A stretch of DNA of 13,305 bases from an uncultured Victivallales bacterium (GTDB lineage: Bacteria > Verrucomicrobiota > Lentisphaeria > Oligosphaerales > JAFGRS01), in NCBI GenBank assembly GCA_903834675.1, contig CAILKC010000061.1:1-13305 (forward strand), written 5' to 3'. This document shows positions 4,073-13,288 of this stretch, in pieces; within the stretch, counting starts at the first letter, position 1; each line of letters opens with the position of its first letter. Under the pieces are notes generated by a model, which had not been told where the DNA came from, did not search any database, and saw nothing but the letters and a program-made list of their open reading frames with translations. Both the position numbers and the translations under genes were made by a program.

Positions 4073-4238
4073 CTGGGGACAGCCCCACGTCTTTTGAAGC
4101 CTTGCCGTTCTTTGCGCCTTGGTTGCATTTGCTTAACGATATGGTAGCCTAACGGGCTCTGGCCGGGATGCGGCTGCTGGCAGGGGTCGCGGGCCCGTGG
4201 GTCCAGATTCGGCAACCGAAGCGCTATGGGAGACACGC
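4073..4238 (+). promoter_or_regulatory. Spacer upstream of the symporter operon
   Basis: This 166-bp spacer follows the beta-helix gene and should hold the promoter of the DUF485-symporter pair. The stretch 4110-4150 is less GC-rich than its surroundings and has loose -35-like (TTGCGC at 4112, TTGGTT at 4119) and -10-like (AACGAT at 4135, TATGGT at 4139) hexamers, none of them convincing. GGGAG at 4228-4232 is six bases before the ATG at 4239 and is the ribosome binding site that favours that start over the GTG at 4197. Confidence 0.3.
4074..4095 (+). terminator. Possible intrinsic terminator after the beta-helix gene
   Basis: TGGGG (4074-4078) and CCCCA (4083-4087) form a 5-bp stem with an ACAG loop, followed shortly by TCTTTT (4090-4095). 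It lies immediately after the TAG stop codon. The stem is short and the T-run is offset by two bases, so it is a weak candidate. Confidence 0.4.
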
Positions 4239-4529
4239 ATGCTGCACGAACCAGCGCCCCGGACGCAGGGGCAGGATAAGGCGTCGGCGCCCAAGGCCCG
4301 CCTGGGGTTACGGTTATTCATCGCTTACTGCGTGGTCTACGCCGGGTTTGTGGTGATCAACACCCTGAAGCCGAAGGCGCTGGAGGGCGCCGGTCTGTTC
4401 GGGGTGAATCTGGCGGTGACCTACGGTTTCGGGCTGATCGTGCTGGCCATTGTGATGGGGCTGATCTACAACGCCGCCTGCACTCGTCTTGAGGACCGCG
4501 TGGGCCAGGGTGGGGAGGGGAAGCCATGA
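4239..4529 (+). CDS. DUF485 family small membrane protein (YjcH-like symporter partner)
   Basis: A 96-residue protein with two predicted membrane helices, about 22-42 (LGLRLFIAYCVVYAGFVVIN) and about 57-79 (NLAVTYGFGLIVLAIVMGLIY). The pair, with YAGFV and the NLAVTYGFGLIVLA signature, matches the DUF485 family, whose E. coli member YjcH is encoded just before the acetate permease ActP. Its biochemical role is not established; it is generally regarded as a companion of the symporter. The ATG at 4239 is preferred to the GTG at 4197 because it has GGGAG six bases upstream. The last codons overlap the next gene by ATGA (4526-4529), which implies translational coupling with the symporter. The length is normal for the family. 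Confidence 0.88.
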   Translation: MLHEPAPRTQGQDKASAPKARLGLRLFIAYCVVYAGFVVINTLKPKALEGAGLFGVNLAVTYGFGLIVLAIVMGLIYNAACTRLEDRVGQGGEGKP

Positions 4530-6451
4530 TCTACCAGCCGTCCATCGTTGCGGTCATCGTCTTTGTGCTTTTCGTGCTCCTGGTGATCGGTTTGTCATCG
4601 TACCTGGCCCGGCGGACGAAGTCAGCCCACAGCTACTTTGCGGCCGGCGGCACGATTCACTGGGGCGTCAATGGCATCGCCTTTGCTGGCGACTACCTCT
4701 CGGCGGCGTCGTTTCTGGGCATCTGCGGCATGATTGCGACGAGCGGCTACGACGGTTTCCTGTACTCGATCGGCTTTCTGGCCGGGTGGGTGGTGGCGCT
4801 GTTCGTGGTGGCGGAGCCGATGAAGCGTCTGGGCCGCTATACTTTCACCGACGCCCTGAACGCCAACTTCAAGTCTCCCGGCATTCAGTTGGCGACGGCG
4901 ATCAGCACCTTAGTGGTGTCGGTCTGTTACCTGATTCCGCAGATGGTGGGTGCGGGCGACCTGGTGACGCCGTTGCTAGGGCTGCCACACTACATGGGGG
5001 TGATCATGGTGGGCGCCATCGTGATCTTCATCGTGGCGACGGCGGGCATGACCTCGACCACCTACGTGCAGTTCATCAAGGGTGGGTTGCTGATCATCTG
5101 TTCGCTGGTCCTGGTCATCATGCTGGTGCGCAAGGGTCTCGACACCAAACCGCAGCCCGACTACCACGTCTTCCTGACGCAGGCAGCCACCTGCGTCGAC
5201 GGTAAAGTCACCCAGGTCGAGGATACCCAAAGCCGGGTCGCCGCGCAGATGGAGGCCGGCGGCAAGACCTTCGTCAAACTGGACCGCGACGGCATCAGCA
5301 CTTGGTGGCTGCTGGTCAAGACCGAGAACGGCGCCGTGCTGAAGGAGGCCCTCGCCATCACCCGCACCGCGGCGGGCGCCACTCTCTACAACGGCGCGCC
5401 CAAAGCGGACCGGAAGTTCTTCCAGGTCGGGCATGTCTCGAAGATCATCGATAACGGGGTCGAGGTAGAGCGTAGCGGACCGGTCGGGCCGTTCCGCTAC
5501 CTGGCGCTGCTGGAAAAGGCGACGGTGGTGCGTTTTGGTGAGCAGCCGCTCAAGGACGGCGGCGACAAGGTGACGGTGTACTATCAGAATCCAACCGCCG
5601 GTGCGCGGATCATGCGTCCGGGCCTCAAGTTCAAGGTGGATGAGGGGGCCACGGTCTGGACCAAGCTCAATTTCATCTCGTTGATGCTGGCCTTGTTTTT
5701 CGGCACCGCGGCCTTGCCGCACATTCTGATTCGCTACTACACGGTGCCCAGCCCGAAGTGCGCCCGCAAGTCAACCATCGTCGCGATTGGGGCAATCGGT
5801 CTGTTCTACGTGCTGACGCTCTTTCTGGGGCTGGGGGCCATGGTCAACGGCGTTCTCGATGTCGAGAGCAGTAACATGGCCGCGCCGCTGCTGGCCCGTT
5901 CCTTCGGGACGCTGCTGTTCGCCATCATCTCGGCGGTGGCGTTTGCGACCATCCTGGGGACGGTCAGCGGCTTGATCGTGGCGGCCTCCGGCGCGGTGGC
6001 GCACGATCTGCTTGATGTTTACTGGAATGTGCGCATGACGGACCAGGGCAAGGTGCGGGCCGGCAAGATTGCGGCCGTGTCGGTGGGGGCCATCGCCATT
6101 GCGCTGGGCATCTTGATGAAGGGAATGAACGTCTCCTTCCTGGTCGGCTTGGCCTTTGCTGTGGCGGCGTCCGCCAACCTGCCCGCCATCCTGATGATGA
6201 TCTTCTGGAAGCGCACGACGGCCAAGGGTATCGCGGCCTCGGTGGTTACCGGCATGCTTTCGTCGCTGCTGATCATCCTGCTGTCGCCCAGCATGTTCGC
6301 GCAGTACGGACTGGACAAGAATGCAGCGCCGATGCCGCTCGACAACCCCGGCATCGTCTCTATCCCCTTGAGTTTTCTGGTGTTGGTGGTCGTCTCCTTG
6401 CTGACCAAAGCCCGGCAGGAGCCCGCCAGCGCCACGCCCGCCAAGGCCTGA
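4526..6451 (+). CDS. ActP-like sodium:solute symporter with enlarged loop (SSS family)
   Basis: A 641-residue inner-membrane transporter of the solute:sodium symporter family, closest in motifs to the acetate permease ActP: YLARRTKSAHSYFAAGG (26-42), FAGDYLSAASFLG (53-65), SGYDGFLYSIGFLAGW (73-88), GRYTFTDA (103-110), MVGAGDL (140-146), FFGTAALPHILIRYYTV (391-407) and ISAVAFATIL (468-477). I count about 13 membrane segments. Transport of acetate or another short carboxylate with a cation is likely, but the substrate is not proven. Residues about 206-376, between helices 6 and 7, form a hydrophilic region of about 170 residues, far longer than the E. coli ActP loop, and would be extracytoplasmic under the usual SSS topology. 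The start overlaps the DUF485 gene by ATGA. No acetyl-CoA synthetase gene lies in the window. Confidence 0.88.
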   Translation: MIYQPSIVAVIVFVLFVLLVIGLSSYLARRTKSAHSYFAAGGTIHWGVNGIAFAGDYLSAASFLGICGMIATSGYDGFLYSIGFLAGWVVALFVVAEPMKRLGRYTFTDALNANFKSPGIQLATAISTLVVSVCYLIPQMVGAGDLVTPLLGLPHYMGVIMVGAIVIFIVATAGMTSTTYVQFIKGGLLIICSLVLVIMLVRKGLDTKPQPDYHVFLTQAATCVDGKVTQVEDTQSRVAAQMEAGGKTFVKLDRDGISTWWLLVKTENGAVLKEALAITRTAAGATLYNGAPKADRKFFQVGHVSKIIDNGVEVERSGPVGPFRYLALLEKATVVRFGEQPLKDGGDKVTVYYQNPTAGARIMRPGLKFKVDEGATVWTKLNFISLMLALFFGTAALPHILIRYYTVPSPKCARKSTIVAIGAIGLFYVLTLFLGLGAMVNGVLDVESSNMAAPLLARSFGTLLFAIISAVAFATILGTVSGLIVAASGAVAHDLLDVYWNVRMTDQGKVRAGKIAAVSVGAIAIALGILMKGMNVSFLVGLAFAVAASANLPAILMMIFWKRTTAKGIAASVVTGMLSSLLIILLSPSMFAQYGLDKNAAPMPLDNPGIVSIPLSFLVLVVVSLLTKARQEPASATPAKA

Positions 6452-6572
6452 GAGGCGCTGGTGGAGGTGCGCGGCCAGAACCGGGGGCCAGGGTCCAGCG
6501 TGGGGCACCGCGGTTGGCTTGAATAGAGGCCCGGTTGAGCGGGAGCTTCGTACGCATCGTGGCGCAGGCTGG

Positions 6573-6615
6573 AAGTCTCATTCTGGTAGGTCTGGCCCCA
6601 GCCGGGGGCTGGGCT
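6573..6615 (+). repeat. Imperfect direct repeat, copy 1
   Basis: The 43-bp segment starts AAGTCTCATTC, contains the 16-mer GCCCCAGCCGGGGGCT and ends in GGCT. It matches 6764-6806 with five substitutions and no gaps by manual alignment. It includes the hairpin CCAGCC-GGG-GGCTGG at 6598-6612. Confidence 0.85.
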
Positions 6616-6634
6616 TGTATGAGGCTTGTATGAG
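6613..6634 (+). repeat. 11-bp tandem duplication GCTTGTATGAG
   Basis: GCTTGTATGAG occurs twice back to back, at 6613-6623 and 6624-6634, without mismatch. A related CTCGTATGA follows at 6647-6655. The duplication overlaps the left arm of the long inverted repeat at 6630. Confidence 0.85.
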
Positions 6635-6772
6635 ACTTGCGGCAACCTCGTATGACACCAGGCGCTTCCCATTCCGCCCGTCGTCCGCCGCGGCGGCCAC
6701 GCAGGGCCGCCCTCCAGGCGATCCGGCACGTACCGGCCGGATCGGAATGGGAACCGCGTCGGCAAGTCTCAT
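6630..6772. repeat. Nested inverted repeats with branched folding potential
   Basis: The outer arms ATGAGACTTGC (6630-6640) and GCAAGTCTCAT (6762-6772) are perfect 11-bp complements. Inside them TTCCCATTCCG (6666-6676) and CGGAATGGGAA (6743-6753) form a second perfect 11-bp stem. This encloses two local hairpins, GGCGGCC/GGCCGCC (6692-6698 with 6705-6711) and ATCCGG/CCGGAT (6721-6726 with 6737-6742), the latter directly abutting the second stem. The palindrome CCGCCGCGGCGG lies at 6685-6696. Such an arrangement suggests a structured RNA or a palindromic mobile repeat of the MITE or REP kind. I do not recognise a known family. Confidence 0.75.
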
Positions 6773-6806
6773 TCCGGTATGTCCAGCCCCAGCCGGGGGC
6801 TTGGCT
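6764..6806 (+). repeat. Imperfect direct repeat, copy 2
   Basis: This second copy of the 43-bp unit has AAGTCTCATTCCGGTATGTC followed by the shared 16-mer GCCCCAGCCGGGGGCT. Its first nine bases are part of the right arm of the long inverted repeat, and its last base starts the heptamer array. Confidence 0.85.
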
Positions 6807-6839
6807 GAACCCTGAACCCTGAACCCTGAACCCTGACCC
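6806..6839 (+). repeat. TGAACCC heptamer tandem repeat
   Basis: Four perfect TGAACCC units run from 6806 to 6833, followed by a shortened fifth unit, TGACCC (6834-6839). The array abuts copy 2 of the 43-bp repeat and ends 39 bp before the ATG of the sensor gene. Copy number in such arrays can change by slippage. Confidence 0.9.
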
Positions 6840-6865
6840 TACGGAACTGACATGCGCCCCTAGAC

Positions 6866-6870
6866 AGGAG
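6866..6870 (+). promoter_or_regulatory. Ribosome binding site for the sensor-nucleotidyltransferase
   Basis: AGGAG ends 8 bases before the ATG at 6879. In-frame GTG codons at 6870 and 6876 overlap or crowd this site and are poorer starts, so the ATG at 6879 is chosen. Confidence 0.65.
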
Positions 6871-6878
6871 TGACGGTG

Positions 6879-9122
6879 ATGGTCACGCGGTTCCTGCTTC
6901 GTATCGGGTTGCCCACCCTGTTGACCTTCGTTCTCTTCTGCATCACCATCTTTGCCATTCTGATTCCGGCCATCGAGCGCAGCATTGTCGAGCACAAGAA
7001 GGAGATGATTCAGGAACTGACCACCTCCGCCTGGAACATTCTGGCCAGTTTCGAGGAGGAAGCGCAGGCTGGCCTGATCAGCCGGGCGGACGCCCAGCGC
7101 GAGGCCGTGCTGCAGTTTCGCAACCTGCACTACGGGCCGCACCTGAAGGACTACTTCTGGGTCAACGACCTGACGCCGCGCATGGTGGTACATCCCTACC
7201 GGCACGACTTGGAGGGGCAGGACATCTCGGGCATTCAGGACCCGGATGGCAAACGGCTATTTGTAGAGTTCGTGCAACTGGCCAAGACCAAGGGCGAGGG
7301 CTTCGTCCGCTACCGCTGGCAGTGGAAAGACGATCCGACCCGGATCGTGCCGAAACTCTCCTACGTGAAGCTGTTCGAGCCTTGGGGGTGGGTGATCGGC
7401 ACCGGCATCTACCTCGAGGACGTACGCCAGGAGGTCGCGGCGGTCACCCGGCGTCTGTTCGTCTACTCGATTGCGATCCTGGCGGTGGTCAGTCTGCTGC
7501 TGTTTGTAGTGCTGCAGCATGGCTTGCGCGTCGAGCGCCTCAACCGCGCCGCGGAGCAGGCGCTGCGGGCTTCCGAAGAGCGCTACCGCACGGTGGTCGA
7601 GTCGGCCGGCGAGAGTATCATCATGGCGGTCGGCCAGGATCGTCTGTATGCCAACGCCAACGCCCTGCAGTTGCTGGGTTTCAGCGCCGAGGAGTTTGCC
7701 GGTTTGAGCCTGCGTCAGGTCATCAAGTTGACCTCGGCCGAGCGCGAGGCGGGCTATCACTGGCACGACGGATTTCTCGATGGCCGTCCCGCGCCGACCA
7801 AACACGAGTCTGAACTGGTCGCCAAAGACGGCCATACCGTGCCGGTGATGCTCTCCTACTCGCCCATCTCCGTGGCGGGCCGCGACGGGGTCATCATCGT
7901 CGCCACCGACATCACGGCGCGCAAACTCCAGGAGGCCGCCCAGGACCAGCACCGCAACGCGCTCCTGGAGCGCATGGACGGCCTGCGGGCACGCGAAGAC
8001 AGTCGCGACGAGGCCCTGCGCAGCCTGCAGGCAGCGCTGCTGCTCCTGCAGGGTCCCGACGCCACCGCGTCGCTCGGCGACTTCACCCGCAAGCTGCGAG
8101 CCGCACACGACCCGGAGGAAGTGGCCGAGCTGAACCGTAGCCTGCCGACGCTGGCGCGAGCGTTGATGGCCAGCGGCCTGCGCTCAGAGGCTGTGAACCG
8201 CTTCATCACCGTGAACAGCGACGCCGTCCTCGAGACGCTGATCGGTTTCGCCTTTCAGCGGTTGGGCCCAGCTCCGGTGGACTTCGTCTTCCTGATCATG
8301 GGCAGCGAGGGGCGGCGGGAACAGACTCTGTGTACCGACCAGGATAACGCCCTGTTGTTTGCGGACCCACCCGCGGCGCAGGGGCCGGCGGTCATGGCCT
8401 ACTTCCAGCGCCTGGGCGAGCAGGTCTGCACCTGGATGAACGAGGCCGGGTATGCTTTTTGTCAGGGGAAGGTGATGGCCAGCAACCCGCAGTGGTGTCA
8501 GCCCCTATCGGCCTGGCAGGCGCACTTTACGGGCTGGATACGGACCTTGGAGGCCACGGACCTGCTGCAGGCCAAGATCTTCTTTGACTTCCGCTGTGGT
8601 TACGGTCAGGCCAGTCTGCTGGAGCCGCTGCGCCAGACGCTGCGCGACGAACTCGGCGCGAACCCCCGCTTTTTCGCGCAGATGGCCTTGAACGTCCTGC
8701 ACTTCGAGCCCCCCCTCGGTCTATTTGGCGGGATCGCCTTGCAGACGGTAGGCGAGCACCGCCGGGTAGTCGACATCAAGAGTGCCATGACCCCGATCGT
8801 CGACTTTGCCCGTATTTACGCGCTGCGGCATGACCTGGCCGCGCGCGGCACGGTCGAACGGCTGGGGGGTTTGTTGGCCGCCGAGGTTCTCACCCGCCAG
8901 AACCACGACGAGATCGTGCAGATCTACGGCGCACTGATGCAGATCCGACTGGAGAACCAGGCCTACGCTCTGAGCGCGCAGCGGACGCCGGACAATCTGG
9001 TGGAACCCGAGCGCCTGACACACCTGCAGCGGCGCATCCTGCGCGAGAGCTTTGCGCAGATACGGAACTTCCAGACCCGGCTGAGCTACGACTTCACCGG
9101 ACTGCCCGGGGGCTTCCGATGA
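6879..9122 (+). CDS. Membrane sensor: sCache - PAS - DUF294 (GlnD-like) nucleotidyltransferase
   Basis: A 747-residue multidomain inner-membrane protein. TM1 (about 8-30) and TM2 (about 193-213) flank an extracytoplasmic single Cache domain (about 35-185; DYFWVND, MVVHPYRHDLEGQDISG, PKLSYVKLFEPWGWVIGTGIY). A cytoplasmic PAS domain follows (about 230-350; ASEERYRTVVESAGESII, VATDITARK), then a helical linker and a DUF294 nucleotidyltransferase-like domain with MGSEGRREQTLCTDQDNALLF (474-494). This fits the G-S...D-x-D nucleotidyltransferase motif, with Asp487 and Asp489 as likely metal ligands. NPQWCQPLSAW (536-546), AKIFFDFR (565-572) and the DUF294_C substrate-binding part (about 585-725; GEHRRVVDIK, PIVDFARIYALRH) complete it. 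It probably transfers a nucleotidyl group to an unknown target under ligand control. Family members normally carry cNMP and CBS domains instead. No kinase, GGDEF or chemotaxis domain is present. The end overlaps the next gene by ATGA. Confidence 0.87.
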   Translation: MVTRFLLRIGLPTLLTFVLFCITIFAILIPAIERSIVEHKKEMIQELTTSAWNILASFEEEAQAGLISRADAQREAVLQFRNLHYGPHLKDYFWVNDLTPRMVVHPYRHDLEGQDISGIQDPDGKRLFVEFVQLAKTKGEGFVRYRWQWKDDPTRIVPKLSYVKLFEPWGWVIGTGIYLEDVRQEVAAVTRRLFVYSIAILAVVSLLLFVVLQHGLRVERLNRAAEQALRASEERYRTVVESAGESIIMAVGQDRLYANANALQLLGFSAEEFAGLSLRQVIKLTSAEREAGYHWHDGFLDGRPAPTKHESELVAKDGHTVPVMLSYSPISVAGRDGVIIVATDITARKLQEAAQDQHRNALLERMDGLRAREDSRDEALRSLQAALLLLQGPDATASLGDFTRKLRAAHDPEEVAELNRSLPTLARALMASGLRSEAVNRFITVNSDAVLETLIGFAFQRLGPAPVDFVFLIMGSEGRREQTLCTDQDNALLFADPPAAQGPAVMAYFQRLGEQVCTWMNEAGYAFCQGKVMASNPQWCQPLSAWQAHFTGWIRTLEATDLLQAKIFFDFRCGYGQASLLEPLRQTLRDELGANPRFFAQMALNVLHFEPPLGLFGGIALQTVGEHRRVVDIKSAMTPIVDFARIYALRHDLAARGTVERLGGLLAAEVLTRQNHDEIVQIYGALMQIRLENQAYALSAQRTPDNLVEPERLTHLQRRILRESFAQIRNFQTRLSYDFTGLPGGFR

Positions 9123-9853
9123 TTCTGTTGCTCTCCGACGTACACTGTTTGTATGAGGTGGTCAATCAGCAGATTGCTCATGCTGAGGCGACGACAGGTC
9201 GGCCGGTAGACGCCGCGATCATTCTGGGTGACGTGGGCCTGTTCGAACCACAGCTTGGGCGCTTTTTTCGGCGCGCCGGGGAACGTTTCACCCGCCCGAC
9301 GTACTTCATCGAGGGCAACCACGAGGATCACGACCACTTAGCGGCATTGGCAAGCGCCTACGGCCACATCCTGGAGCATCTGCCCCGGAGTTCGGTGCGT
9401 GTCATCGACGGCCACCGCTTCCTCTGCCTGGGCGGCGCGGGCTACATGGATGCGCACACGACGCCGTGGTCCGCGGTCATCACGGCGACGGACATTGAGG
9501 CCTGCCTGGCCCACCCCCACGGCGCCATCGATGCCATCCTCTCGCACGACTGTCCGCAGGGGATCGGGGTCCCCAACCGCCCTGGGTTTGAGCACTACGG
9601 TCCGCCAGGATTTGAAGGCAGCTCCTCGTTGCTGGCCCACTTTGCGCCCCGGTTCTGGTTTTTTGGACACCACCATAGGTGGCATGACTATACTATCGGT
9701 GGCACTCGTTTTGCGGGCCTGGCGCAGAGCTGGAAGGGCTACGGGCTGCTGGACCACGACGGCACTCTGCGGGTGGTTCAGCATAGCGTGCCTATCGCCA
9801 CACCCTTCTGGGCCGGTCTCCGGCGCCGCTGGTTGAGCGTCTGGCGGCGCTGA
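9119..9853 (+). CDS. Calcineurin-like metallophosphoesterase
   Basis: A 244-residue predicted cytoplasmic phosphoesterase with the complete two-metal motif set: DVH (Asp7, His9), GD (37-38), GNHE (66-69), SHD (His143) and GHHH (183-186). It has no signal peptide. The substrate cannot be read from sequence; family members hydrolyse phosphomonoesters, phosphodiesters or nucleotides. The segment FEHYGPPGFEGSSSLLAHF and the GHHHRWHDYTIGGTRFAGL close are typical of bacterial single-domain members. A basic, Trp-rich tail (LRRRWLSVWRR) ends the protein. Its start overlaps the stop of the sensor-nucleotidyltransferase by ATGA (9119-9122), so the two are probably made in a coupled fashion and may act on the same molecule. 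rlmI follows 18 bp later. Confidence 0.9.
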   Translation: MILLLSDVHCLYEVVNQQIAHAEATTGRPVDAAIILGDVGLFEPQLGRFFRRAGERFTRPTYFIEGNHEDHDHLAALASAYGHILEHLPRSSVRVIDGHRFLCLGGAGYMDAHTTPWSAVITATDIEACLAHPHGAIDAILSHDCPQGIGVPNRPGFEHYGPPGFEGSSSLLAHFAPRFWFFGHHHRWHDYTIGGTRFAGLAQSWKGYGLLDHDGTLRVVQHSVPIATPFWAGLRRRWLSVWRR

Positions 9854-9871: not shown

Positions 9872-11065
9872 ATGCAGGCGCAGATGGTCATCAAGCCGAG
9901 TTGCGAGCGCTCGTTGCTGCGGGGACATCCCTGGATCATGTCGGGGGCGGTCGAGAGTGTGCGCGGCGCGCCGACTCCGGGCGCGACCGTGGACGTCGTC
10001 AATGGGCGCGGCGAGTGGTTCGCCAGCGCGGCCTACTCGCCGAGTTCGCAGATCCGCGGTCGGGTCTGGAGTTTCAGCCGTGATGAGGCCATCGACGACG
10101 CCTTCTTCCGGCAGCGGCTGGCGCTGGCCTTCGGGCTCCGCGTGGGGCTGGGTCTGGGCGCGGACAAGGACACGGCCAGGCGTCTGGTCAACGCCGAGTC
10201 GGATGGTTTGCCCGGAGTCATCATCGACCGTTACGGGGAGGTGCTGGTGGGGCAATTTTTGACGGTGGGCGCGGAGCGCTGGAAGCCGGTGCTGGTCGAG
10301 GCGGCTATGGAGCTGAGCGGCTGCGCCTCGTTCTATGAGCGTTCCGACAGCAGTGCGCGGGAACGCGAAGGCCTTCCCGAGGTCTGCGGTCTGCGCGCCG
10401 GGGTCGAACCGCCGGAGCTGGTGACCATCGTGGAGGGGGCGGCGCGCTACCTGGTCGACGTGCGCGCCGGGCACAAGACCGGCTTCTACCTCGACCAGCG
10501 CGAGAACCGCTCCCTGGTGGGCGCCGCCTGTCGCGGCCTGGAGGTGCTCAATTGCTTCTGCTACACGGGCGGCTTTGGCATCGCGGCGCTGGTCGGCGGC
10601 GCCACGGCCGTCGTGCAGATCGATGTTTCCGCCGCGGCTCTCGATCTGGCCCGCCGCAATGCCGAGCTCAACGGCTTTGGGCCGGAGCGCAGCCGCGTGG
10701 TCGAAGCGGACGTTTTTCACGAGCTGCGTCGCCTGCGGGACCGGCGCGCCTCGTTCGATGCCATCGTCCTGGACCCGCCCAAGTTTGCCGATACCCGCAG
10801 CCAGCTTGACGGCGCCTGCCGCGGCTACAAGGACATTAACCTTCTGGCGTTCAAGCTGGTGCGTCCGGGCGGCAGCCTGTTCACCTTTTCGTGTTCGGGC
10901 GCCATGACGCCCGAGCTTTTCCACAAGGTGGTAGCCGAGGCGGCCGCGGACGCCGGGCGGGATGGCTGTATCGTACGGGAGTTATCGCAGGCCGCCGACC
11001 ATCCGCGTCTGTTGCGAGTGCCCGAGGCGCACTACCTCAACGGCTTGCAGGTGAGCGTGCGCTGA
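9872..11065 (+). CDS. rlmI: 23S rRNA (cytosine1962-C5)-methyltransferase RlmI
   Basis: A 397-residue SAM-dependent methyltransferase that closely follows E. coli RlmI (396 residues as I recall it). The N-terminal PUA-type RNA-binding domain (about 1-75) has LLRGHPWIMSGAV and AAYSPSSQIRGRVW. A central domain carries NAESDGLPGVIIDRYG (107-122). The catalytic domain contains HKTGFYLDQRENR (201-213), SAM-binding NCFCYTGGF (227-235), DPPKF (301-305) and the FSCSG motif with the probable catalytic Cys341. QLDGACRGYKDINLLA is also family-typical. It methylates C5 of cytosine 1962 of 23S rRNA. AGGAG at 9862-9866 precedes the ATG by five bases, and the 18-bp gap to the phosphoesterase suggests co-transcription, probably without functional relation to the sensor genes. 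It converges with the aminotransferase 27 bp downstream, with no clear terminator between them. Confidence 0.95.
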   Translation: MQAQMVIKPSCERSLLRGHPWIMSGAVESVRGAPTPGATVDVVNGRGEWFASAAYSPSSQIRGRVWSFSRDEAIDDAFFRQRLALAFGLRVGLGLGADKDTARRLVNAESDGLPGVIIDRYGEVLVGQFLTVGAERWKPVLVEAAMELSGCASFYERSDSSAREREGLPEVCGLRAGVEPPELVTIVEGAARYLVDVRAGHKTGFYLDQRENRSLVGAACRGLEVLNCFCYTGGFGIAALVGGATAVVQIDVSAAALDLARRNAELNGFGPERSRVVEADVFHELRRLRDRRASFDAIVLDPPKFADTRSQLDGACRGYKDINLLAFKLVRPGGSLFTFSCSGAMTPELFHKVVAEAAADAGRDGCIVRELSQAADHPRLLRVPEAHYLNGLQVSVR

Positions 11066-11092: not shown

Positions 11093-12298
11093 TCAGGCGC
11101 GGCGCAGACGTTCCACGCAACGGCACATGGCCGCGGCGATGTAGCGGTTGAGATCGTCGCTCATGGCGGGGTGCAGCGAGACACAGAAGAGGCGCGCGGT
11201 AATGGCTTCCGAGAGCGGGTTACGCTGCCCCTTGGTGTGCTCAGCCAGGAGCTTCCGGCTGAGGTAGGCGGGCCGGTTGGCGACGACGCAACCGATGGCG
11301 TAGTCATCCTGCAGCATCTGCATGAGTTTGTCGCGCTTTTCACCGGCCCAGGCTTCGGGCACCAGGCAGGTGTAGAGGTAGAAGCTGTGCTCGCAGTCGG
11401 CCGGCTCGTAGGGCGGCGTGATCTCGGGCAACCCGGCCAGCATCGCGGTACGAGCATAGGCCAGGCGGCGCCGGGAGGCGATGAAGCCGTCGAGTTTGCG
11501 GAGCTGCACCAGGCCGACCGCGGCCTGGACCTTGGTCATGACGTTGCTGGTGCCCCAGGCCTCGGCCTCGCTGCCGTACATGCGCACCGAGCGGCAGAAC
11601 TTCTGCACGTTCTCGTCGTCGGTGGTGACCATCCCGCCTTCGCCGAGGGTGGTCATGTTCTTCATGGTATGGAAACTGAAGATAGTGGCCAGGCCCTTCT
11701 TGCCGATCTTGCCGCCCTGGTAGCCGCCGCCGCAGGCGCGGGCGGCATCGCCGATGACGGGGATGGGGCCAAACTCGGGGTGCGGGCGCCGCTGGCCGAC
11801 CGCGATGAGTTCATCCATGGGCGCGGACATGCCGTTCATGTGGACCGGGAAGATGGCGCGGGTCCGCGGCGTGATCCTGGCCTCGACGTCAACCGGATCG
11901 AGTTCGAAAGTCCGCGGGTCGATCTCGCCCCAGATCACCTGTCCGCCAGCGCCGAGGACGGCCAGGGGCGCCGCCTGGTAGTTGACGCTGGGGACGATCA
12001 CCTCGTCGCCGGGTTTGAGCTTGAGCGAACGCATGACCATGTCCAGGCCCGGCCCGGCGCTGTTGCAGGTGACCGCGTACTTGCAGCCGCAGTAGGCGGC
12101 GAAGGCCTGCTCGAACTCCGGGATAGGCGAGGCCGAGAAGCCGAAGCCTTTGTGGATGTCCATCGCTTCACGGATGGCGGCCACGGCAGCCTCGACCTCT
12201 TCCTCGCCGTAGGCGCCGCCCAGCAGCGGCTCTGCCTTCCAGACCGTCGGGGGTTTCGGAAACTTCAGGGCCTCGTTGATCTCACGTTCGCTCAGCAT
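11093..12298 (-). CDS. DegT/DnrJ/EryC1/StrS family PLP-dependent aminotransferase
   Basis: A 401-residue type I fold PLP enzyme of the family that aminates keto-sugars in nucleotide-sugar, surface-polysaccharide or secondary metabolism. Visible features are TCNSAGPGLDMVMRSL (77-92, cofactor phosphate region), GDEVIVPSVNY (97-107), the IGDAARACGG stretch with Asp184 contacting the PLP nitrogen, and FSFHTMKNMTTLGEGGMV with Lys213 as the Schiff-base lysine. YGSEAEAWGTSNVMTKVQAAVGLVQL is also typical. The length is usual. The substrate cannot be inferred, and no other sugar-nucleotide genes are in the window. The start is supported by GGGAGG (12308-12313) nine bases upstream. It is divergent from an AraC-family gene, which may regulate it, and convergent with rlmI. 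Confidence 0.92.
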   Translation of the reverse strand: MLSEREINEALKFPKPPTVWKAEPLLGGAYGEEEVEAAVAAIREAMDIHKGFGFSASPIPEFEQAFAAYCGCKYAVTCNSAGPGLDMVMRSLKLKPGDEVIVPSVNYQAAPLAVLGAGGQVIWGEIDPRTFELDPVDVEARITPRTRAIFPVHMNGMSAPMDELIAVGQRRPHPEFGPIPVIGDAARACGGGYQGGKIGKKGLATIFSFHTMKNMTTLGEGGMVTTDDENVQKFCRSVRMYGSEAEAWGTSNVMTKVQAAVGLVQLRKLDGFIASRRRLAYARTAMLAGLPEITPPYEPADCEHSFYLYTCLVPEAWAGEKRDKLMQMLQDDYAIGCVVANRPAYLSRKLLAEHTKGQRNPLSEAITARLFCVSLHPAMSDDLNRYIAAAMCRCVERLRRA

Positions 12299-12427
12299 GT
12301 CCGTGTGCCTCCCTGCAATTCTCGCTCATTCTCCAGCCTGACCACCGAGACGCCCAGGACCCGTTCGCCGGGATGATTTGAGCCCTCGTTGGCTTCACGA
12401 AATCACTGTACTAGCTTAGGCAGACTA
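12299..12427. promoter_or_regulatory. Divergent promoter region between the aminotransferase and araC-type genes
   Basis: This 129-bp spacer must contain the promoters of both divergent genes if each is transcribed from here. The right half (about 12395-12430) is less GC-rich, and TTGAGC (12378) is a weak -35 candidate. No convincing promoter pair or repeated operator could be identified by eye. GGGAGG on the minus strand at 12308-12313 serves the aminotransferase. Confidence 0.35.
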
Positions 12428-13288
12428 ATGAAATTGCAGGGCATGGACGAGGTTGGCCAATATATGGACAAAATACGCGGTATTCTGGAGATGGCCTTGG
12501 ACTGGGTAAGCCTTGCGGAGACCGTTCCCGTGGCCTACGCGGCCGAGGACCGGGTGCCGGTGAACACGCGGGCCAGCCCGCTGCTGGAGTTTGGTCTGCA
12601 CTCGCTGGGCGCGGAGAGTCTGCTTGAGGTCGGCGGGCTGCGGCGTGAGTCAAGAGCAGGGGACGTGTGTGTGCTGAATGCGCACTACGGCAATCGGGGA
12701 ACGCCGCGCCAGCACTGGGGTTTCTGGTGCGTGTCGCTGGACACGCGGACCTGTCCCGACGCAGCCATCGGCCAGGCGCCGCTCCTGGAGCTGGCGCATC
12801 TGCGGCACCCGGCCCGGGTCTTGGCGCAGTTCGAGGAAGTGGGGCGCCTCTACAAGCACGGCGCCGAGACCCGCGGCTACCGGCTCAAGGCCGAGGTACT
12901 GCGCCTCCTGGCCGAGCTCTATGAGAACTGCGGCTACGTCAGCACACCGCCCGTGAGTTCGGCGGCCTGCCAGGCGGCGTTGGACTTCATGGACGAGCAC
13001 CAGGCTGATCCCGGCCTGAGCCTACCGCGACTGGCACGGGCCGCGTCGCTCTCCGTGGCGCAGCTCTGTCGGGTCTTCCAGCGTGACCTGGGCGCCAGTC
13101 CGATGAAGCATCTTACCCGCCTGCGTCTCGAACGGGCGCGGGACCTGTTGCGCAAGACCACGCTGAACGTCGGCGAGGTGGCCCACGCCGTCGGCTTCAA
13201 CGACCCGCTGCACTTCTCGCGGGTCTTCCGCCGCTACGCTGGGGCGCCCCCGAGGGACCTGCGGCGGGGGCTGTTGCCGCGGCAGTGA
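12428..13288 (+). CDS. AraC family transcriptional regulator
   Basis: A 286-residue regulator. The C-terminal 100 residues (about 183-283) are an AraC/XylS double helix-turn-helix: LSLPRLARAASLSVAQLCRVFQ (first HTH, about 198-218), then SPMKHLTRLRLERARDLL and VGEVAHAVGFNDPLHFSRVFRRYAGAPP (second HTH, about 248-274). The N-terminal part (about 45-110; EFGLHSLGAESLLEVGGLRR, RAGDVCVLNAHYG, HWGFWCVSLD) looks like a cupin-type effector-binding domain, probably for a sugar or related metabolite. The ATG at 12428, with TAGG seven bases upstream, is preferred to the TTG at 12389; an ATG at 12443 is also possible. It may regulate the divergent aminotransferase or itself, but no operator was identified. 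The gene is complete and stops 17 bases before the window end. Confidence 0.9.
   Translation: MKLQGMDEVGQYMDKIRGILEMALDWVSLAETVPVAYAAEDRVPVNTRASPLLEFGLHSLGAESLLEVGGLRRESRAGDVCVLNAHYGNRGTPRQHWGFWCVSLDTRTCPDAAIGQAPLLELAHLRHPARVLAQFEEVGRLYKHGAETRGYRLKAEVLRLLAELYENCGYVSTPPVSSAACQAALDFMDEHQADPGLSLPRLARAASLSVAQLCRVFQRDLGASPMKHLTRLRLERARDLLRKTTLNVGEVAHAVGFNDPLHFSRVFRRYAGAPPRDLRRGLLPRQ

Follow-up and report, generated by a model that had tools for sequence, protein, structure and literature searches.

A widespread Cache-PAS-DUF294 sensor protein with exchangeable partners and a probable role in monocarboxylate uptake

Gene group and domain layout of the sensor protein

We analysed a stretch of 13,305 nucleotides from an uncultured Victivallales bacterium (contig CAILKC010000061.1; the whole stretch is called the window), in which one gene encodes a membrane protein, here the sensor protein, that joins a periplasmic Cache domain and a PAS domain to the nucleotidyltransferase domain DUF294. 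It lies in a compact plus-strand group of genes for a DUF485 protein, an SSF-family symporter, the sensor, a phosphoesterase and a methyltransferase, and the same gene order was found in another locus at 86% identity. The features are as follows.

6879..9122, + strand: sensor protein of 747 amino acids, transmembrane (TM) helix-sCache_2-TM-PAS-DUF294-DUF294_C (Pfam, hydropathy, structural model, fold matches)
6990..7448, + strand: sCache_2 domain, residues 38-190, with a complete C2/C3-carboxylate pocket (Pfam, alignment, residues from PMC5062169)
7644..7919, + strand: PAS domain, residues 256-347 (Pfam)
8139..8549, + strand: DUF294 nucleotidyltransferase domain, residues 421-557, with Gly475-Ser476 and Asp487-x-Asp489 (Pfam, alignments)
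8664..9095, + strand: DUF294_C domain, residues 596-739 (Pfam)
9119..9853, + strand: calcineurin-type metallophosphoesterase, proposed eraser (Pfam Metallophos, E 1.6e-8)
4526..6451, + strand: SSF-family symporter, proposed controlled transporter (Pfam SSF, E 1.4e-68)
4197..4529, + strand: DUF485 small membrane protein, symporter partner (Pfam DUF485, 31.9 bits, cut-off 28)
9872-11065, + strand: methyltransferase with a PUA-like domain (Pfam)

The sensor reading frame was confirmed as 747 codons from the ATG at 6879 to a stop ending at 9122, with an alternative GTG start open 9 nucleotides (nt) upstream. All four Pfam matches exceed the curated cut-offs: sCache_2 (PF17200) with E 1.2e-39 and 136.2 bits against a cut-off of 25, PAS_9 with E 1.2e-8, DUF294 (PF03445) with E 2.5e-43 and 147.7 bits against 21, and DUF294_C (PF10335) with E 6.2e-42 and 143.3 bits against 22.5. 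Hydropathy places two TM-like stretches at residues ~14-32 and ~193-211, and a helix lies between PAS and DUF294. An earlier note, made from the sequence alone, had proposed this order of domains, with Asp487 and Asp489 intact and an extracytoplasmic sensor lacking any kinase, cyclase or chemotaxis domain, and Pfam, hydropathy and alignments bear it out on these points; a kinase or chemotaxis output, for which Pfam detected no domain, was rejected. Since the AlphaFold2 model built from 60 sequences has a mean pLDDT of 83.9 and a pTM of 0.52, its individual domains can be regarded as trustworthy and their packing against each other cannot.

The DUF294 domain is intact: Gly475, Ser476, Asp487 and Asp489, which we take to be the nucleotidyltransferase-superfamily motif (Gly-Ser, Asp-x-Asp), are invariant in 60/60 rows of a homologue alignment and in all 70 Cache-DUF294 genes of the wider sample described below. 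Among the 50 best fold matches, the leading ones over this part are the protein adenylyltransferases GlnE and DrrA. Fold and motif together point to nucleotidyl transfer as the activity of the domain, with a protein as its somewhat favoured substrate.

The earlier note had considered the layout unusual, and here it was mistaken. Of 7998 candidates scored in a protein search, 1562 matched at E <= 1e-5, and all of the best 120, the window protein included, carry sCache_2, DUF294 and DUF294_C in precomputed domain assignments, so that rarity of the architecture was rejected. Loci bearing the fusion include ones titled Victivallales, Lentisphaeria, Planctomycetota, Verrucomicrobia, Riflebacteria, Draconibacterium and Vibrio; two of the 14 loci compared with the window (L012 and L013) have a Cache gene without DUF294. 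A few Cache-DUF294 genes appear frame-broken in their assemblies (L004 10001-12973, L207, L237). Within the searched literature, which leaves most subscription journals outside, no publication joining DUF294, Cache and nucleotidyltransferase was found, and the available text on DUF294 held no account of the architecture. Thus the Cache-DUF294 proteins are real, widespread and, within that literature, uncharacterised.

Partner slot of DUF294 proteins

The start of the phosphoesterase gene overlaps the sensor stop by 4 nt (ATGA), and we surveyed the corresponding position in 175 stretches, comprising the window, the 14 loci and 160 fetched stretches. Counting only DUF294 matches of 200 residues or more, we obtained 154 anchors from 148 stretches; the remaining 27 contained 24 sCache_2 genes of other type, the split frame of L004 and two loci at contig ends (L141 and L261). 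The anchors comprise 70 with Cache and 84 others, reduced to 83 in the tests by leaving out L237, a probable split Cache-DUF294 gene with a Cache-matching stretch in a separate open reading frame (ORF) just upstream.

Among the 70 Cache anchors, 41 (window included) have the calcineurin-type phosphoesterase directly downstream on the same strand, at a gap of -3 to 53 nt, and two (L260 and L262) have another calcineurin-type gene, confirmed by Pfam, 30-32 nt upstream. A PHP domain accompanies four anchors, three as N-terminal fusions and one (L207) as an ORF just upstream whose C-terminus reads like a sensor start and which is probably a frame-broken fusion; L011 has an N-terminally fused DnaQ domain. 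A conserved helical family of 112 residues, here family X, accompanies 16, fused N-terminally in 14 and as separate genes 6-7 nt downstream in two (L118 6650-6988; L119 9166-9504). The one-component layout of the earlier note is therefore incomplete: in 64/70 cases the sensor gene has a partner gene or fused partner domain, a link that the note had not drawn. Among the other 83 anchors a DnaQ-type gene is found in 66, downstream in 56 of them. The remaining 17 lack a known partner, and in two of these (L146 and L186) the stretch ends with the contig. Directly downstream of two related partnerless DUF294 genes lies a spore-photoproduct-lyase-like radical SAM gene (L146 5817-6917, L178 8052-9152).

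No anchor has two partner types together. Comparison of Cache with other anchors gave Fisher values, which ignore kinship, of 6e-26 for DnaQ, 1e-18 for the phosphoesterase, 1e-6 for family X and 0.04 for PHP. A quick tree left 47/151 inner branches open; the smallest numbers of changes that it allows, 6 in the partner and 4 in Cache, are not firm. The rows are related, family X forming a single clade, and with a minimum of 6 partner changes overall independent swaps are few. The phosphoesterase hidden Markov model (HMM) was derived from a cluster of neighbouring genes in 15 loci, almost all of them with Cache, and missed L260 and L262; a motif scan free of the HMM found the enzyme in 38 Cache loci and one other locus (L237), and a looser DnaQ search in the Cache-only loci returned only the fused copy of L011. 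The HMM found no phosphoesterase in any of the 24 stretches with an sCache_2 gene and no DUF294 match, and therefore the partner goes with the fusion and not with the sensor.

The active sites of the phosphoesterase and DnaQ partners look intact in alignments: Asp7, His9, Asp38, Asn67, His68, His143, His184 and His186, presumably the phosphoesterase metal site, are kept in 40-41/41 relatives, and the set that we take to be DEDDh is kept in 58-62/62 DnaQ genes. Family X has many invariant His, Asp and Arg residues and invariant Tyr as well, and its His, Asp and Tyr would be compatible with a role in removing a nucleotide; the L118 copy has no Pfam match, and no convincing PDB match was obtained for the family.

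Cache pocket and neighbouring symporter

The Cache domain is 41-42% identical to those of PscD (5g4y) and Adeh_3718 (4k08). Seven propionate-contacting residues of PscD are named in PMC5062169, and they align to Tyr92, Trp94, His105, Phe128, Tyr145, Trp147 and Lys159 of the sensor protein. None of the seven varies in the alignment of 60 homologues; over the 70 fusions six are present in 70/70, and position 94 is Trp in 62 and Phe in 8. In the L-lactate sensors of PMC12415202 Leu is reported to replace the pocket His, which the pyruvate-binding domains there keep, and because His105 is present lactate is a less likely ligand. The ligand is thus very probably a short C2/C3 carboxylate, judging from these residues; the pocket does not tell which C2/C3 acid, and the same residues can go with different affinity, as PMC5062169 cautions.

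An SSF symporter gene lies within 6 kb of 43/70 Cache anchors and 28/83 others, and an SSF or DUF485 gene within 6 kb of 46/70 Cache anchors. The earlier note had set the window protein apart from DUF294 proteins near ActP-type symporters, described there as usually using cNMP-binding and CBS domains; the linkage to SSF symporters stands, and many of the best 120 relatives carry CBS domains in addition to Cache. DUF485 accompanies 33/70 Cache anchors and 0/83 others, whereas DUF4212 (14/83 against 1/70) and acetyl-CoA-synthetase-like genes (21/83 against 2/70) go with the others, the latter two labels being our presumptive assignments from sequence and not from a profile search. The coordinates of the window DUF485 gene count from the GTG start given in the ORF list; in the homologue L127_15 the protein starts at Met-Leu-His-Glu-Pro, which is internal here. 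The NCBIfam models nearest to the window symporter are MctC (454.3 bits, cut-off 670) and ActP (409.4 bits, cut-off 750). Taken together, a role of Cache-DUF294 proteins in monocarboxylate uptake is likely.

The window symporter itself has a long insert at its residues ~202-378, after a TM-like stretch. The region matching residues 205-373 measures 153-176 residues in 29/37 symporters of Cache stretches and 49-71 in the remaining 8, against 26-61 residues in 18/18 symporters of other stretches. By crude hydropathy the insert would face the cell exterior, and it may there make contact with Cache.

A gap of 427 nt (6452-6878) separates symporter and sensor genes, against 109 nt in L001, and contains a 43-nt direct repeat (6573-6615 / 6764-6806, 88%), a 7-nt tandem repeat (6805-6840) and inverted repeats; Rfam gave no match in the window. 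Among the 14 loci, the PUA-domain methyltransferase follows the phosphoesterase only in L001. Further downstream lie a sugar-aminotransferase-like gene (11093-12298) and an AraC-type regulator (12389-13288), both with matches below the NCBIfam cut-offs.

Proposed mechanism, alternatives and known systems

We tentatively propose that a ligand controls monocarboxylate uptake through reversible nucleotidylation, with DUF294 as writer and its partners as exchangeable erasers, a reading that we hold as possible and short of probable. The periplasmic sCache_2 domain would bind one of the C2/C3 monocarboxylates acetate, glycolate, pyruvate and propionate, and the signal would pass through the second TM helix, PAS and the following helix to the cytoplasmic nucleotidyltransferase. 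DUF294 would then attach AMP or UMP to an uptake protein, for which the best candidates are the co-encoded symporter, the DUF485 protein that goes with it and proteins regulating these two, and the phosphoesterase of the overlapping gene would remove the nucleotide. In other genomes the eraser would instead be a DnaQ-type exonuclease, a PHP phosphoesterase, another calcineurin-type enzyme or family X. GlnD unites a nucleotidyltransferase of the same kind with its own removing hydrolase domain. By this analogy, and because three unrelated phosphoesterase folds swap beside one nucleotidyltransferase, fused or adjoining, we consider that the partner probably, if by no great measure, erases what DUF294 adds.

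Genetic data from the soluble DUF294 branch bear on this proposal. In Pseudomonas, PMC5715377 describes a nucleotidyltransferase domain in pflu5625 and predicts that the protein works by nucleotidylation, and the CBS protein pp_0354 forms an operon with pp_0353, a member of the RNase_T family, and belongs to the regulon of actP-I (PMC9927547). Expression of the actP-containing cluster PA3232-PA3235 is raised on propionate, yet that of PA3233-PA3235 falls once propionate is added, and a PA3234 deletion strain grows normally on propionate (PMC9765439). The published Pseudomonas putida phenotypes fit a writer and an eraser: loss of the eraser, locking an inactive, modified state, would account for the asymmetric phenotypes of the pp_0353 mutant, which is impaired on pyruvate, and the pp_0354 mutant.

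Several observations weigh against the proposed chain. On acetate, deletion of either pflu5625 or actP had only negligible consequences (PMC5715377), and acetate growth of the pp_0353 and pp_0354 mutants was unaffected (PMC9927547). In these Pseudomonas studies loss of a DUF294-type gene alone had no growth effect, and actP loss had a negligible effect on growth on acetate or propionate. That pp_0354 is a DUF294 protein is itself our inference, the available text of PMC9927547 never terming it a nucleotidyltransferase. Because the window symporter stays under all NCBIfam transporter cut-offs, a substrate can be assigned to it only tentatively, and 24/70 Cache anchors lack both an SSF and a DUF485 gene within 6 kb, contig ends cutting some of these stretches short. 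Six Cache anchors (L128, L142, L143, L144, L258 and L259) have no recognised partner, family X shows no recognised catalytic fold, and the same partner slot would also suit a nucleotide messenger or an RNA substrate.

A messenger, linear or cyclic, would be made by DUF294 on ligand binding and degraded by the partner. The nucleotidyltransferase superfamily includes messenger synthases, DnaQ-type, PHP and calcineurin-type enzymes include small-nucleotide hydrolases, and each writer is paired with at most one hydrolase type; however, the leading ones of the 50 best fold matches modify proteins, although messenger synthases may rank beyond these 50, and no recurrent candidate receptor gene was found in the neighbourhoods, and we regard a messenger as unlikely. 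It is likewise improbable that DUF294 adds nucleotides to an RNA 3' end that the partner trims, the pair controlling mRNA or tRNA. The DnaQ-type partners do match RNase_T and, weakly, an exoribonuclease domain, the solved sequence nearest to the window phosphoesterase is an RNA lariat debranching enzyme (E 4e-5), and the authors of PMC9927547 suggested mRNA decay by pp_0353; yet Pfam detects no RNA-binding domain in the sensor protein, its membrane anchor beside a transporter does not suggest RNA, and the GlnE and DrrA folds act on proteins.

The partners could also be separate effectors or targets in the same pathway as a protein-nucleotidylating DUF294. Family X, given its lack of a recognised catalytic fold, could then be an adaptor or substrate, and the partnerless anchors (6/70 Cache, 17/83 others) would fall into place, but the mutual exclusion of three unrelated phosphoesterase folds, fused or near-overlapping, beside one nucleotidyltransferase, and the 0/24 count in Cache genes without DUF294, leave little room for this view. 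We find it very unlikely that the domain is a ligand- or nucleotide-binding scaffold touching the symporter with no group transfer: the long symporter insert (29/37 against 0/18), if outside the cell, could touch Cache, but a binding scaffold would hardly need motif carboxylates invariant in 70/70 genes.

Returning to reversible nucleotidylation, a broader and more doubtful extension is that DUF294 genes form their own signalling kind, controlling organic-acid uptake through exchangeable inputs (inside cNMP/CBS or outside Cache-PAS) and erasers (DnaQ, two calcineurin-type enzymes, PHP or the 112-residue family) around one conserved writer; the window would be the outside-sensing, calcineurin-type variant, and the 112-residue family a new denucleotidylase. 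DUF294 proteins occur widely and are linked to the use of acetate and pyruvate, and the searched literature, as far as its text was available, gave no assigned target or demonstrated activity for them; the exclusive partner slot offers a concrete writer and eraser mechanism, and the invariant Cache pocket indicates the ligand class. If true, an outside carboxylate would be coupled directly to nucleotidylation in bacteria, and we know of no characterised example of such wiring.

Among known systems, the sCache_2 chemoreceptors PscD and Adeh_3718 share the sensory domain, but their output is chemotaxis, whereas that of the sensor protein is a nucleotidyltransferase. The NCBIfam model (NF052443) of MctS, the monocarboxylate-transporter sensor histidine kinase, matches residues 29-206 with 90.9 bits, far below its cut-off of 700, and the sensor protein has no kinase domain by Pfam. 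GlnE and GlnD have the fold of the transferase part at 12-14% identity, without TM, Cache or PAS; their remover is in the same polypeptide, whereas Pfam finds no second catalytic domain in the window protein and the phosphoesterase, of another fold, is encoded next door. The cNMP-binding/CBS/nucleotidyltransferase proteins of the Pseudomonas acetate regulon (pflu5625; pp_0354) are soluble and have inside sensors, compared with which the window protein has an outside Cache, a PAS, a calcineurin-type partner and no CBS; pp_0354 pairs with an RNase_T gene, as the soluble DUF294 genes examined here pair with DnaQ in 66/83 cases.
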